A stretch of 26,626 nt of DNA. Source: a virus. Position 1 is the stretch's first letter. Each line of letters starts with the position of its first letter. Positions 16,517 through 25,958 of the stretch are shown piece by piece. Below the pieces are notes generated by a model. That model saw only the letters and a list, made by a program, of their open reading frames with translations. It had not been told where the DNA came from and searched no databases. The stretch spans positions 1-26,626 of the IMG/VR virus record IMGVR_UViG_3300027747_000974; one strand, written 5' to 3'. A program made the translations under genes and the position numbers.

Positions 16517-16655
16517 AAAAAAGGTGTGTGCTTCCGTCAGGTAATATTTCATAATCTGGGGCAGCAAATCCAGCAGCCTTAAGCGCTAGTATAACCTCTT
16601 CCAAGTCTATATCTTTCTGTGCCAAAATGCGGTCTTCTGAAGTAAAGGTAGTCAT
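16455..16655 (-). CDS. Small hypothetical protein
   Basis: A 66-residue protein, MTTFTSEDRILAQKDIDLEE..., acidic, with a likely helix (DLEEVILALKAAGF) and a Gly/Pro-containing end (YEILPDGSTHLFYGQKD). No family recognised. The start overlaps the upstream stop as ATGA. Its 3' end overlaps the winged-helix gene by about 60 bases in another frame. The tight coupling supports it being translated. Confidence 0.6.
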   Translation of the reverse strand: MTTFTSEDRILAQKDIDLEEVILALKAAGFAAPDYEILPDGSTHLFYGQKDRNTPVPLQESGDKES

Positions 16656-16861
16656 AAGTGCTTCTCCCAGTGTTTATCTGATTCCTGCGTTTTCATAGCT
16701 TTTTCAAACATCTGTTTCCAATACTCTATTTCGTTTGCTTGGTTTTTTATAACCCAAGATGCGGTAGCTACATTCTCAGAGCCAGCAATTGCCTTGTCTT
16801 GCATATTGTTAAATAGCTTGTCAAGGTCTTTTATAAATAATTCTATGTCAAAGTTTTTCAT
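16652..16861 (-). CDS. Small helical hypothetical protein
   Basis: A 69-residue protein from MKNFDIELFIKDLDKLFNNM, predicted all-helical with a charged C-terminus (KTQESDKHWEKHL). A longer frame from 17047 exists, but the sequence before residue Met-Lys-Asn-Phe belongs to another small gene in a different frame. I start it at 16861 because this ATG overlaps that gene's stop (ATGA) and directly follows the recurring 19-base junction element. Function unknown. Confidence 0.62.
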   Translation of the reverse strand: MKNFDIELFIKDLDKLFNNMQDKAIAGSENVATASWVIKNQANEIEYWKQMFEKAMKTQESDKHWEKHL

Positions 16862-17001
16862 TTTTCTTGTGCCTTTGTTATTAATAACATTACAGTTTCG
16901 TACCCATTTATTACGCCAACATGAAACAAAGCTGATATACCACCTAACAAATTTGCTATAAAAAGTATTGGTGCCATCAAAATTACAATTAAATATTTCA
17001 T
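16858..17001 (-). CDS. Small single-span membrane protein
   Basis: A 47-residue protein, MKYLIVILMAPILFIANLLG then GISALFHVGV..., ending ITKAQEK. The first 30 residues are a strongly hydrophobic segment, so it is probably a small inner-membrane protein. Both ends overlap neighbours by ATGA, and both junctions carry the recurring AAAGGCACAAG-type element, which encodes the KAQEK tail. It is easy to miss because a longer antisense-free frame covers it. Function unknown. Confidence 0.62.
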   Translation of the reverse strand: MKYLIVILMAPILFIANLLGGISALFHVGVINGYETVMLLITKAQEK

Positions 17002-17267
17002 TTTTCTTGTTCCTTTCCAAGCTCATAGTTTTCAGTAAGACCGCCACAAGTAGGGTCGCCTTTCCACCAATCTCCTGATGGTTTATTTGGTTGTCCTTCT
17101 CTAATAATCATTAAATCTAATAACTTTAAACATTTATCTTTCAACGTTTCTATTTCAGCTTGTTGCTGGCGTAGCATGGTTGCTGCTTGGTCAATGTACG
17201 GTTGCTCTGACATAATCATGGCTTCCACGCTGTTGTCCAAGTAATCTGCTAATTCATTTGCGTTCAT
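16998..17267 (-). CDS. MNANEL-family small coiled-coil protein
   Basis: An 89-residue protein, MNANELADYLDNSVEAM..., with AATMLRQQQAEIETLKDKCL as a short coiled coil and a Gly/Trp-rich end (SGDWWKGDPTCGG), finishing GKEQEK. It is paralogous to the next gene upstream (MNASELANALE) and to the plus-strand gene at 25366 (MNANELADHME...MLRQQQAEIEALK). I start at ATG 17267, preceded by AGGAGATTGAAA; a TTG two codons earlier is less likely. The family is common in uncultured freshwater phages as I recall it; function unknown. Confidence 0.72.
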   Translation of the reverse strand: MNANELADYLDNSVEAMIMSEQPYIDQAATMLRQQQAEIETLKDKCLKLLDLMIIREGQPNKPSGDWWKGDPTCGGLTENYELGKEQEK

Positions 17268-19016: not shown

Positions 19017-19712
19017 TTATTCCTTAGTTAATGATTTTTTTGTTGCTGAAAAACTTACCATAATCTGTGCATATGCTTTGTCGTCTAATTCTTTTGCTTT
19101 ATCAAACACAACACGATTATTCTTAAAGATATTGGCTACATCGTCTGGATGTACTGCTAGTGCCAGTAAGGTCTCTACGCCGGCTTTTAATGACTCCATC
19201 CATGCGTTAACGTCTTCTGTCTCCATAACAGTAAGCTGCCAATCTCCGGGTTTACCCGCAGTCTTCCCAGTCTTTGTGGCTGCAGCTTTTTCGACCGCTG
19301 CCTTTGGTGCTGGAATATTTGGCACTTCTGGCATTGGCTTAGTGTCTCCAGTATCCGGTGGGATGTCTTCGCCGTTGTATATGTATAGCCCAATACCATG
19401 TAATGCGATTGCCTTAGCTAAGCAACGCTGCATAGCAGTATTGACGGCAAAAGAATCTGGCTCAGAGATTGGCTTATTCCGATAGTCCATTACTGGAAGC
19501 TGTGCTGTACGAGCAATATCATTGGCAATAACAGTACAAAATACCATTACAGAACCACCGCCCCAGCGTTGATACTCCGGATAAAACCAATGTGCTTTAG
19601 GGTCAGCTAATAATAACTGGTCTACAGCCCATGCCCAAGATAGATACGTGAGATTATTTTTCTTCTCGGTATATTTAGAGACATCTATCTGTCTCAGTTC
19701 TTTGTATTCCAT
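19017..19712 (-). CDS. Single-strand annealing protein, DUF1071/Sak3 type
   Basis: A 231-residue recombinase of the Rad52-like/Sak3 (DUF1071) group, which coats single-stranded DNA and anneals complementary strands. Family marks: LTYLSWAWAVDQLLLADPKA, VFCTVIANDIARTAQLPVMD, NKPISEPDSFAVNTAMQRC and LAKAIALHGIGLYIYNGEDIP at about residues 20-118. The C-terminal 110 residues are a Pro/Ala/Lys linker followed by a helical domain, as is usual in these proteins. A Cas4-like nuclease lies two genes upstream, so an exonuclease/annealing pair is likely. Family call is confident; activity is inferred. Confidence 0.85.
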   Translation of the reverse strand: MEYKELRQIDVSKYTEKKNNLTYLSWAWAVDQLLLADPKAHWFYPEYQRWGGGSVMVFCTVIANDIARTAQLPVMDYRNKPISEPDSFAVNTAMQRCLAKAIALHGIGLYIYNGEDIPPDTGDTKPMPEVPNIPAPKAAVEKAAATKTGKTAGKPGDWQLTVMETEDVNAWMESLKAGVETLLALAVHPDDVANIFKNNRVVFDKAKELDDKAYAQIMVSFSATKKSLTKE

Positions 19713-19909: not shown

Positions 19910-20124
19910 CACTTCTCCTCGTTAAGTACTACTTCAATTAACTTTTCTAAATAGTGCTGGGCTTTACGCAAGTCCTCAACATTATTCTTAAACCGGTAAC
20001 GGGAAACGTATTTCACAATATTTCCCTCAAGATAGCCAAGGTCATTGGCAACTATATAATCCCATGGCTGGATTGCATTCTTTGAGTAATGCGTACCGCC
20101 TACCTGCATACCATTTGCACTCAT
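19909..20124 (-). CDS. DUF3310 family protein
   Basis: A 71-residue protein with the full DUF3310 signature: MQVGGTHYSKNAIQPWDYIV, LGYLEGNIVKYVSRYRFKNN and VEDLRKAQHYLEKLIEVV. Such proteins are widespread in phages; some entries are labelled nucleotide-kinase-like, but the activity is not established to my knowledge. Both ends overlap neighbours (ATGA upstream, TGATG downstream). Family identification is strong. Confidence 0.88.
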   Translation of the reverse strand: MSANGMQVGGTHYSKNAIQPWDYIVANDLGYLEGNIVKYVSRYRFKNNVEDLRKAQHYLEKLIEVVLNEEK

Positions 20125-20996
20125 TGGTTTTCCTCTAAATACGCTTTATATTGGTCACAATAGGGGGCTACTTGGCAATACTCTTCGCAGCGCACTCTCC
20201 TACCTTTGCGTGTTTCAAGCACATATCCTTTGCCCAATTTATTTACTTCTTCCTCTGCATCTTCTAATACATCGTGTAAAGACTTTGCTCTTTGATTGCC
20301 ATCTTTCTTGACGGCATAGACTGTTGGTCTTTCCCACATCTCCTCTGCTGTACAGTATTGTAACACTTCTGTTGCATCTGTTGCAAATTTAGCCTCGGAA
20401 TGAATATGAATTTTGCTACGGATAAATAGTTCCCGCTGCTCCATTGTCCATAGCTTAATTGGTATGACGACAGCACGAGCCTCTGGATAACCCTCTTTAG
20501 TCTGAGCATCCCGCTTGTTCCAGTCTCTAACAATAGCAATAATAGCGAGCTTATGAACGGGAGCTTTTTTTACATACTCTACTAGCCAAGCATAACAGTT
20601 AAGCTGCTCTTCCCATTCTTTCTTCTCATTCATCACCGCCCAAGCACCAACGTTTTTATAGTCGTTGATTTCAATGCCTTTGTCGGACTCAATCTGAAGG
20701 TCAATAGCTCCTGAGACACTCCAGCCATCTAGCTCAGCAAAGAGACGCTCTTCTACAATATGACCTGGCACCTTACCTTGTTCTAGGATGTAGTGCATTG
20801 CCGTGCCCCATAAAGAGGGAATGAGCTCTGTAACATCCTGCTCTATCAAGTGGTCGTATTTCTCTCTCAGCTGGACAATCCTTGGACTAGTGAGTAGGCC
20901 AGTGACCGACATATGCGAAGCACCTTTGGAATAGGTAGGCCGCTTTACCGCTTGGACTATCGTTTCTGGTAATCCGTATTTATTAGTTATCTTCAA
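20121..20996 (-). CDS. PD-(D/E)XK exonuclease, Cas4/RecB-like, with four cysteines
   Basis: A 291-residue nuclease. Core: H68 in GTAMHYILEQ, D99 in GAIDLQ, D112-Y-K114 in EINDYKN, and Q131-x3-Y135 in QLNCYAWL. C215 with C270, C274 and C280 near the C-terminus (CEEYCQVAPYC) fits the spacing of an iron-sulfur cluster in Cas4/AddB-type nucleases. It probably resects DNA to make substrate for the annealing protein two genes on. I start at TTG 20996, which overlaps the preceding stop as TTGA, because the N-terminus it adds (KITNKYGLPETIVQAV) looks conserved in this family. Confidence 0.85.
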   Translation of the reverse strand: MKITNKYGLPETIVQAVKRPTYSKGASHMSVTGLLTSPRIVQLREKYDHLIEQDVTELIPSLWGTAMHYILEQGKVPGHIVEERLFAELDGWSVSGAIDLQIESDKGIEINDYKNVGAWAVMNEKKEWEEQLNCYAWLVEYVKKAPVHKLAIIAIVRDWNKRDAQTKEGYPEARAVVIPIKLWTMEQRELFIRSKIHIHSEAKFATDATEVLQYCTAEEMWERPTVYAVKKDGNQRAKSLHDVLEDAEEEVNKLGKGYVLETRKGRRVRCEEYCQVAPYCDQYKAYLEENQ

Positions 20997-23267: not shown

Positions 23268-23612
23268 GTGCTTACCCTAACGTTTCCCTATCCTTGTAGC
23301 GTCAACGCTTATTGGCTGGCTAGCGGTCATCGCCGGTATATTTCCAAACGTGGAATGGAATTTAAAAAAGCCGTTCAAGAAATATGTAGGAACGTTGCTA
23401 CATTTGGTGATAAGCCGGTGGAGGTATCCATCATCCTTTATCCAAGAGACAAGCGGCTGCTGGATATAGATAACATTTGCAAGTGCGTCCTAGACTCCAT
23501 GAATGGAATAATTTATGACGACGACCAGCAGGTCTGGAAGTTAACAGTAGAACGGGGCGAGAAAATTAAGGGTGGCGGCTGCCAAGTCACTATTAAAGAG
23601 TACTTAATGTAA
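23268..23612 (+). CDS. rusA: RusA-family Holliday junction resolvase
   Basis: A 114-residue RusA-type endonuclease that cuts four-way DNA junctions, resolving recombination intermediates before packaging. Marks: FPYPCSVNAYW at the N-terminus, then RDKRLLDIDNICKCVLDSMN with D66, D68, N69 and D76, and GIIYDDDQQV with the acidic trio 84-86, ending in a strand G-G-G-C-Q-V-T-I. Length is typical of the family. The start is GTG at 23268 with no visible Shine-Dalgarno, so leaderless or weak initiation is possible. Divergent from the recombination operon and functionally linked to its annealing protein and nuclease. Confidence 0.9.
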   Translation: MLTLTFPYPCSVNAYWLASGHRRYISKRGMEFKKAVQEICRNVATFGDKPVEVSIILYPRDKRLLDIDNICKCVLDSMNGIIYDDDQQVWKLTVERGEKIKGGGCQVTIKEYLM

Positions 23613-24857: not shown

Positions 24858-25022
24858 ATGAATCAAAAAGACTATTACCATATGACGCAGCAAGAAGTAG
24901 CAGACAAACTAGGGTTAAGTCGCCCAAACGTTAATCATTATGAGAAGCAGGCGTTAGAGAAACTAAGGGCAGCCCTTGAAAAGCGTGGCATCAAGGCGAG
25001 TGACGTATTGGATGTGAAATGA
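24858..25022 (+). CDS. Small sigma-70 region 4-like HTH protein
   Basis: A 54-residue protein. MTQQEVADKLGLSRPNVNHY then EKQALEKLRAALEKRG is the helix-turn-helix of sigma-70 region 4, which normally contacts the -35 box. Nothing of region 2 is present, so it cannot be a complete sigma factor; it could be a repressor, an anti-host-transcription factor or a regulator of phage promoters. GAAAGGA lies six bases before the ATG. It is the first gene after the structured RNA and overlaps the next gene by ATGA. Confidence 0.75.
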   Translation: MNQKDYYHMTQQEVADKLGLSRPNVNHYEKQALEKLRAALEKRGIKASDVLDVK

Positions 25023-25369
25023 ACAATGAACCAGTAGCGCATTTTTATCCTGAAGGTGAAGGATGCACAGTCTATGATATTCAGTTTGCTTGGAAAGTTA
25101 CAGGAACAACAGAGCCTATTCCACTCTACACCCATCCAGCAAAGTATTGCCCATCAGAAAACAATGCTGCCTATGAAAAAGGATTTATTGATGGCATGGC
25201 AAAGATGACTGAATCTGCGGTTCATCGTGCTGTTGAAGGTATGTCAGTAAAGACACTAACAGATGAGGAAATAACAGAAATCTTTGATACAACTTTTGAA
25301 GTTCGTGATTATCAAGATTCGTTTATTAAGTTTGCTAGAGCAATTCTAAAAAAGGCAGAAGAGAAATGA
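25019..25369 (+). CDS. Conserved phage hypothetical protein (EPVA...LYTHP type)
   Basis: A 116-residue protein. The opening NNEPVAHFYPEGEGCTVYD and the motif EPIPLYTHPAK are of a type I recall in many small phage proteins; the middle is a helix (AAYEKGFIDGMAKMTESAVH), and the end, LTDEEITEIFDTTFEV then FIKFARAILKKAEEK, is another recurrent module. It thus looks modular. The C-terminal KKAEEK is encoded by a copy of the recurring junction element. Function unknown. Overlaps both neighbours by ATGA. Confidence 0.7.
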   Translation: MNNEPVAHFYPEGEGCTVYDIQFAWKVTGTTEPIPLYTHPAKYCPSENNAAYEKGFIDGMAKMTESAVHRAVEGMSVKTLTDEEITEIFDTTFEVRDYQDSFIKFARAILKKAEEK

Positions 25370-25533
25370 ACGCAAATGAACTAGCTGACCATATGGAAAA
25401 ATACTTTGATTCTGAGCCGTATTGTGATGAAGTAGTTGCTATGCTACGTCAGCAACAAGCTGAAATAGAGGCGTTGAAAACTGAGTTAAGGCTAATTGAT
25501 GAATTAGTAACTGGAAAGGCACAAGAGAAATGA
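25366..25533 (+). CDS. MNANEL-family small coiled-coil protein
   Basis: A 55-residue protein, MNANELADHMEKYFDSEPYC then DEVVAMLRQQQAEIEALKTE, ending VTGKAQEK. It is paralogous to the minus-strand genes at 16998 and 17254 (shared MNA-EL and MLRQQQAEIE). The KAQEK tail comes from a junction-element copy. Start and stop both overlap neighbours by ATGA. Function unknown. Confidence 0.68.
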   Translation: MNANELADHMEKYFDSEPYCDEVVAMLRQQQAEIEALKTELRLIDELVTGKAQEK

Positions 25534-25625
25534 ATGAATTAATAGATTATGTTTTACCTATTTGCATTGTTGCCCTGACAATTTGTATGTGTCTAGGGTT
25601 GCTTAGGTCTGCTGGATTTATTTAA
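25530..25625 (+). CDS. Single-span membrane peptide
   Basis: A 31-residue reading frame, MNELIDYVLPICIVALTICM then CLGLLRSAGFI, nearly all one membrane helix. It starts inside the preceding stop (ATGA), right after a junction-element copy. It resembles in type, not in sequence, the small membrane proteins of the minus-strand operon. Function unknown. Confidence 0.55.
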   Translation: MNELIDYVLPICIVALTICMCLGLLRSAGFI

Positions 25626-25641
25626 GAAAGGCACAAGAGAA

Positions 25642-25782
25642 ATGAATATAAAACAAGAGTTAAAGAAAAACATTAGATGGATTGCTCTTAAATCAGGCAA
25701 AACTAACAAACAAGTTATGGATGACATTAAAAGGTTTGACAAAATTCTTTTTGGGGATAATAAAAAGGCACAAAAGAAATGA
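25642..25782 (+). CDS. Small basic protein
   Basis: A 46-residue lysine-rich helical protein, MNIKQELKKNIRWIALKSGK then TNKQVMDDIKRFDKILFGDN, ending KKAQKK. It starts 16 bases after the previous stop, directly behind an untranslated copy of the junction element, and ends in another. A nucleic-acid-binding role would fit the charge, but no motif is present. Confidence 0.58.
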   Translation: MNIKQELKKNIRWIALKSGKTNKQVMDDIKRFDKILFGDNKKAQKK

Positions 25783-25958
25783 ATGACATTAGAAAACAAA
25801 TACAAGAACAAATGAGTAAAATTCCGGACGCCGTACAAAACGGCTCAGTCCAGCAAGTTATCCGTTGGAAAGAACGCTGTAATGAAGCACAAAGAATTGT
25901 TAATAACAGTAAAGCAACACAACATCAGCTGGAGCAGGCTCTCAGAAGTTTGAAATGA
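25779..25958 (+). CDS. Small coiled-coil protein
   Basis: A 59-residue protein, MNDIRKQIQEQMSKIPDAVQ then NGSVQQVIRWKERCNEAQRI, ending QLEQALRSLK. Gln/Lys-rich, probably two helices. ATGA overlaps at both ends. No family recognised. Confidence 0.6.
   Translation: MNDIRKQIQEQMSKIPDAVQNGSVQQVIRWKERCNEAQRIVNNSKATQHQLEQALRSLK

Follow-up and report, generated by a model that had tools for sequence, protein, structure and literature searches.

Small genes of unrelated phages are joined by one short conserved DNA element, the 23-nt sequence TAAGAAAGGCACAAGAGAAATGA, which terminates one gene and starts the next; gene turnover is located exactly at this element. The element is likely a stop-Shine-Dalgarno-start linker that is spread and reused through homologous recombination. 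Its anatomy, its conservation as DNA, the turnover of genes at it and its occurrence in unrelated phages were shown, while the recombination pathway, the translational coupling and the cause of the uniformity of the linker are inferred; no recombination event was observed.

The window, i.e., the whole stretch of 26,626 nucleotides that was analyzed (IMG/VR virus record IMGVR_UViG_3300027747_000974, positions 1 to 26,626), contains in total six copies with zero to two mismatches to the 19-nt core AAAGGCACAAGAGAAATGA (Table 1), with a chance expectation of 0.02 and no shuffle giving six. An earlier note, made from the sequence alone, had listed these six copies, had described two of them as identical and had assigned to most of them a KAQEK tail, a stop and an overlapping ATGA start. 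All three claims held: the 19-mers at 25515 and 25627 are identical, and a KAQEK-like tail followed by TGA and an overlapping ATG is found in five of the six copies. Its statement that the copy at 25627 lies outside any upstream gene was corrected, as the 31-aa gene preceding this copy closes at the TAA at 25623-25625, immediately 5' of the 19-mer, with the first bases of the joint stopping the upstream gene in another frame. The sequence is absent from all other gene starts of the window. The four plus-strand copies lie in a small-gene array after a sigma-region-4-like helix-turn-helix gene (24858-25022), and the two minus-strand copies are located on the same strand as, and downstream of, the genes of the Sak annealing protein and the PD-(D/E)XK nuclease. 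Situated at the head of the plus-strand array, this 54-aa protein (sigma-70 region 4-like) possibly controls the array genes. The two MNANELAD genes, encoded on opposite strands, have in common a 63-nt stretch (79%) and a 37-nt 5' stretch (81%). No Pfam or PHROG match was obtained for the scaffold gene that adjoins the first copy.

Table 1. Copies of the joint in the window and genes in their surroundings.
Feature	Position	Strand	Remarks
Joint, copy 1	25351-25369	+	1 mismatch; KAEEK and TGA of 25019-25369; ATG of 25366-25533
Joint, copy 2	25515-25533	+	exact; KAQEK and TGA of 25366-25533; ATG of 25530-25625
Joint, copy 3	25623-25645	+	exact 23-mer; TAA ends 25530-25625 in other frame; ATG at 25642
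Joint, copy 4	25764-25782	+	1 mismatch; KAQKK and TGA of 25642-25782; ATG of 25779-25958
Joint, copy 5	16858-16876	-	1 mismatch; KAQEK end of 16858-17001; ATG of 16652-16861
Joint, copy 6	16998-17016	-	2 mismatches; KEQEK end of 16998-17267; ATG of 16858-17001
MNNEPVA scaffold micro-gene, 116 aa	25019-25369	+	3' end has FARAIL box
Cassette gene, MNANELAD family, 55 aa	25366-25533	+	relative of 16998-17267
Cassette gene, 31-aa hydrophobic peptide	25530-25625	+	stop is the element's TAA
Cassette gene MNIKQELKK, 46 aa	25642-25782	+	between copies 3 and 4
Gene MNDIRKQ, 59 aa	25779-25958	+	downstream of copy 4
Cassette gene MKNFDIELF	16652-16861	-	downstream of copy 5
Cassette gene, 47 aa, hydrophobic	16858-17001	-	between copies 6 and 5
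Cassette gene, MNANELAD family	16998-17267	-	upstream of copy 6
Sak single-strand annealing protein	19017-19712	-	PF06378, E 1.7e-40; candidate recombinase, role inferred
PD-(D/E)XK nuclease	20121-20996	-	PF12705; likely partner exonuclease (inferred)
RusA-like Holliday junction resolvase	23268-23612	+	phrog_34, E 1.9e-32

An alignment of 240 non-redundant contexts revealed a conserved block from TAAG through ATGA. As the bases TAAG at positions -4 to -1 are each present in 83-86% of the 240 copies, the TAA was assigned to the element, resulting in a conserved unit of 23 nt. From 5' to 3' the joint is composed of the stop TAA, a Shine-Dalgarno-like AGAAAGG, the stop TGA in another frame and the overlapping ATGA. 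Conservation is at background level directly 3' of the ATGA and decays gradually across ~20 nt on the 5' side. The conservation of the core is in part due to the selection of hits, since the IMG/VR pattern scan preset most of the 19 core positions; TAAG and the element-independent sets treated below are exempt from this. For 136 cassettes lying between successive copies it was found that the upstream gene ends inside the joint in 131, using TGA in 114 and TAA in 17 of them, while the third frame, which would read through into the next gene, is essentially unused. A downstream start at the element's ATG, or at a GTG or TTG variant of it, was a condition of counting. The AGAAAGG is located 10 nt 5' of the ATG and is complementary to the common 3' tail of 16S rRNA. 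A generic sequence of this tail was used for the pairing energies. The Shine-Dalgarno pairing is ordinary, with -3.7 to -10.2 kcal/mol for the window copies and a mean of -5.7 for other starts. No RNA structure, hairpin or dyad was predicted in the 23-mer (0 kcal/mol), and the z-score of the 39-nt box that ends scaffold genes (TTTGCTAGAGCAATACTAAGAAAGGCACAAGAGAAATGA) was 0.64. Further classes of repeated junctions were seen in contigs L016, L065, L066, L206 and others, namely AGCGAGTGAGAAATGA (KASEK, 8 contexts), the 3-nt shorter AAAGGCACAAGAATGA (7 contexts) and AGGAAAAAAGAAATGA (7 contexts).

The conserved entity is the DNA and not the peptide. At the FARAILRKAxEK ends of 56 scaffold genes, the synonymous choices agree with a single DNA sequence in 602 of 630 cases, whereas 236 are expected from codon use, and in sets assembled independently of the element 112 of 122 synonymous codons match compared to 46 expected. 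Within the box, even rare choices are nearly fixed, an example being CTA for leucine, a codon with a share of 14.5% in the background. The pairwise identity of the 39-nt box is 92%, that of the adjoining 24 nt 37%. The earlier note had suggested that DNA or RNA rather than peptide is conserved, which held for DNA, and had named chance from the KAQEK codons alone as a possible refutation; this failed, because synonymous sites are fixed and copies occur outside the KAQEK frame.

The genes on both sides of the element turn over. Upstream of 183 distinct junctions with GGCACAAGAGAAATGA there are 168 distinct sequences, and downstream of them 163; the 293 downstream genes were grouped by single linkage into about 122 families. 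Homology breaks at the element in 97% of the informative comparisons; the corresponding share is 80% for the other ATGA junctions located within 2 kb, and 57% when the ATGA junctions of all loci are taken. The element is common to both sides, since upstream homology stops at its 3' edge (in 76% at positions 15-22), and homology on the downstream side begins at or before its 5' edge (58% vs. 11% in controls). Where upstream genes are at least 80% identical, a related gene is found across the element in only 4 of 62 pairs, whereas the figure for ordinary ATGA junctions nearby (within 2 kb) is 34 of 54 pairs (p = 3e-11); with downstream genes of at least 80% identity as anchor, the neighbor is related in 10 of 52 pairs at the element and in 30 of 49 local controls. 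As gene pairs are not independent, Fisher values overstate the certainty. In a bootstrap over loci the ranges for the upstream anchor are separate (0-0.20 vs. 0.31-0.87), and those for the downstream anchor overlap narrowly (0.02-0.38 vs. 0.33-0.84).

Individual cases show the same pattern. In five contigs, one and the same scaffold gene has a different gene behind it each time. A four-gene block shared by contigs L080 and L169 (674 bp, 98.4%) has its ends at distances of 0 and 2 nt from the joint edges, with other genes beyond, and shorter element-bounded blocks are shared by L043 and L120 (129 bp, 96.9%) and by L056 and L110 (135 bp, 95.6%). From the window, the block 25623-25781 matches L038 with 92.5%; the match stops at joint positions on both sides and the upstream gene of L038 differs. 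Blocks with elements at both ends numbered 23, compared to 0-9 after sliding the element positions, although this is a modest test. With these data the proposal of the earlier note, a recombination joint for the swapping of small genes that keeps translation coupled, is supported as to the joint, while homologous recombination at the element and the coupling remain inferred. Flanking genes vary while the element stays, and synteny breakpoints are much more frequent at the element than at nearby ordinary ATGA junctions. A restriction to vertically inherited paralogues, which would have refuted the proposal, failed as the joined genes are mostly unrelated.

Reassortment is also seen inside a gene. 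The gene that often adjoins the joint on its 5' side, termed the scaffold gene, contains more DNA-invariant boxes at its start and middle, so that the order is AACAATGAACCAGTAGCGTGG at the 5' end, CCACTCTACACCCATCCAGCAAAG and AAGACACTAACAGATGAGGAAATA in the middle and TTTGCTAGAGCAATACTA plus the joint at the 3' end. Carriers of the MNNEPVAW scaffold are the window (25019-25369) and contigs L194, L080, L131, L139, L142, L143, L206, L046 and L056. After removal of exact duplicates, a comparison of 41 scaffold genes gave 18 pairs that share one variable segment (at least 80%) without the other and none that share both, showing that the segments between the boxes assort independently. The scaffold gene of the window is itself a mosaic, since its front corresponds to L136 (92.8%), its middle to L132 (89.7%) and its rear to L142 (98.9%). 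A bolder reading is that unrelated environmental phages draw on a common pool of micro-gene cassettes with a universal set of DNA connectors, whereby genes and gene segments are reassorted population-wide by general homologous recombination without a dedicated recombinase. For this reading the balance could tip either way.

As the contigs are metagenome assemblies, a repeated 39-mer could give false joins that resemble swaps. Several junctions recur in other datasets (L080/L169 98.4%, L178/L185 98.2%, L144/L146 98.0%, L034/L109 97.1% and L029/L092 91.3%), and these recurrences do not represent the same molecules because the sequences diverge (91-98% identity). A spanning match was found for 71 of 341 junctions, several of these being the same contig fetched twice.

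The joint is not tied to a single phage lineage or recombinase, since the terminases are unrelated and the annealing proteins vary. The IMG/VR pattern scan yielded at least 120 further stretches, with up to nine copies within 2 kb. A relaxed scan of these stretches and the window, allowing up to three mismatches, found 251 copies, compared to 0-2 for scrambled motifs. Among loci of Sak relatives, chosen without reference to the element, 24 of 79 carry 56 copies, with 0.7 expected by chance. The element was present in 27 of 30 long contigs, its copies almost always forming a single array with the same strand throughout. Terminase matches were obtained in eleven contigs, ten of which gave a long open frame, and many pairs are less than 35% identical or not alignable. 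In the group of 20 contigs that was chosen by the pattern, ERF was found in eight and Sak in one. Neither was seen in about half of the contigs selected this way, all of which may be fragments, and RecT was found in none of the 26 contigs tested. Hence, RecT was rejected as common recombinase, and Sak or ERF were rejected as sole cause as about half of the contigs chosen by the pattern showed neither. A gene MTTFTTEDRVA..QQGT.EWHQ lies as a cassette behind the element in L021, L026, L073 and L079 and resembles, judged by eye only, a YqaJ-type exonuclease.

Among 84,980 genomes the 23-mer occurs in just four contigs, all from MAGs of scattered phyla, and a bacterial origin was rejected on this ground. 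These contigs (L127-L130) are labelled Bacteroidetes, cyanobacterium, beta proteobacterium and Nitrosotalea and are probably mis-binned phage contigs. The 39-nt box was located in a single annotated phage record, L239 (MW202753.1, 31883-31921; 92.3%). This record belongs to an uncultured phage of Manatee Spring, and its box region also includes an exonuclease and an antirestriction gene. A protein search of phage records with the scaffold gene gave no match, and nothing relevant to KAQEK or to such junctions was found in the papers searched, which constitute a partial library.

A mechanism can be proposed, in which the same 23-39 nt at many boundaries in many phages offer sites at which unrelated small genes can be joined by homologous recombination with neither being broken. 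A gene entering the joint in two of the three frames would be closed properly by TAA or TGA, and translation would be expected for any gene starting at the ATG of the joint. Exchange between co-infecting phages would swap cassettes and keep the linker uniform. Either phage annealing proteins (type Sak or ERF) or the RecA of the host would be the most plausible agents. Sak belongs, together with Erf and Red-beta, to the Rad52-like recombinases of phages; Red-beta tolerates short or diverged homology, and its minimal pairing segment was reported to be 23-27 bp, that of RecA 31-34 bp (PMC3945230). These minima are about the lengths of the 23-nt core and the 39-nt box, a correspondence that is no more than suggestive.

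Among the rival explanations, the one that survives best, although it is unlikely, is that the element is a strong ribosome-binding and coupling signal kept by translational selection, with neighbors turning over for other reasons. It is supported by the complementarity of AGAAAGG to the 16S tail, by position, orientation and ATGA overlap, which all fit translation, and by energies in the normal range. Against it, other junctions of the same phages have unrelated sequences and the mismatch counts are bimodal, peaking at 0-2 and rising again at 8-12, a distribution for which a generic ribosome-site consensus was rejected. Moreover, the non-pairing spacer CACAAGAG is conserved equally (the scan preset most of its positions), conservation at synonymous sites continues for another ~20 nt of coding sequence, and homology breaks are commoner at the element than at other ATGA junctions. 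It is very unlikely that a dedicated site-specific recombinase or integrase acts on the element, in the manner of gene-cassette systems: the arrays are cassette-like with one shared site per gene, but an attC-like inverted-repeat structure was not found, the core being without hairpin or dyad (0 kcal/mol), although integrase genes were not among the families sought. Hardly tenable and already contradicted is the reading that a C-terminal KAQEK peptide, acting as tag or binding tail, is conserved and the DNA follows. The KAQEK frame is indeed read in 114 of 136 cassettes, and variants such as KASEK and KANEK occur, but it is unused in 17 of the 136 and in the window copy at 25627; this reading was rejected as exact copies are out of frame and synonymous sites fixed. 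Recent tandem duplication of one vertically inherited gene family is practically ruled out and already contradicted. In its favor, the MNNEPVAW/MNANELAD group accounts for 100 of the 293 downstream genes and the window has two MNANELAD genes, but about 121 other families begin at the element and one upstream gene precedes five different genes in five contigs.

The preferred reading, a linker reused by homologous recombination, places the joint in a kind of element known in principle from lambdoid boundary sequences, T4 PeSLs and mycobacteriophage SAS. Lambdoid boundary sequences were proposed as homologous-recombination sites joining modules (Susskind and Botstein, 1978; Clark et al., 2001, for HK620; PMC3029335). 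Like these, the joint is a short conserved sequence at boundaries of different genes where homology ends; it differs in its sequence, in its up to nine copies per array, in genes of ~30-200 aa, in the unrelated terminases of its carriers, and in its stop-Shine-Dalgarno-start anatomy and intragenic boxes. PeSLs of T4-like phages are small mobile intergenic regulatory sequences through which modules are shuffled (Arbiol, 2010; Comeau, 2014; PMC4503421). A PeSL comprises a promoter and a stem-loop, whereas the joint has no stem-loop, overlaps coding sequence and has translation signals; an identity as RNA hairpin or PeSL was rejected as no structure is predicted. The SAS/ESAS of Cluster K mycobacteriophages (GGGATAGGAGCCC, 13 bp, often with 17-bp inverted repeats), for which a role in translation was proposed (PMC3203893), are likewise repeated directly 5' of starts in different gene families, have a Shine-Dalgarno core and sometimes an upstream stop. 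The joint does not match the SAS consensus, the sequences differing by inspection, and the sections of PMC3203893 that bear on SAS describe no swapping. The lambda ninR region is reportedly a chain of interlinked genes (Kroeger and Hobom, 1982) and resembles the arrays in having small genes joined by ATGA overlaps in an early operon. The sequence of the joint, its stop-Shine-Dalgarno-start design, its copy number and its spread across phages were not found described in the partial literature searched.

The finding bears on an old argument, i.e., if phage mosaicism arises via homologous recombination at short boundary sequences or via illegitimate joining. Boundary sequences were reported to be missing from most mosaic boundaries (PMC3029335). 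The joints constitute a large natural set, with hundreds of copies in which the boundary sequence can be seen and comes close to the pairing minima in length, and in which it is tolerated for a clear reason, as it ends one gene and begins another. The question of mosaicism thereby becomes testable, because the boundary sequence is visible, tolerated and near the pairing-minimum length, and the joints offer a route to accessory phage genes in viromes.
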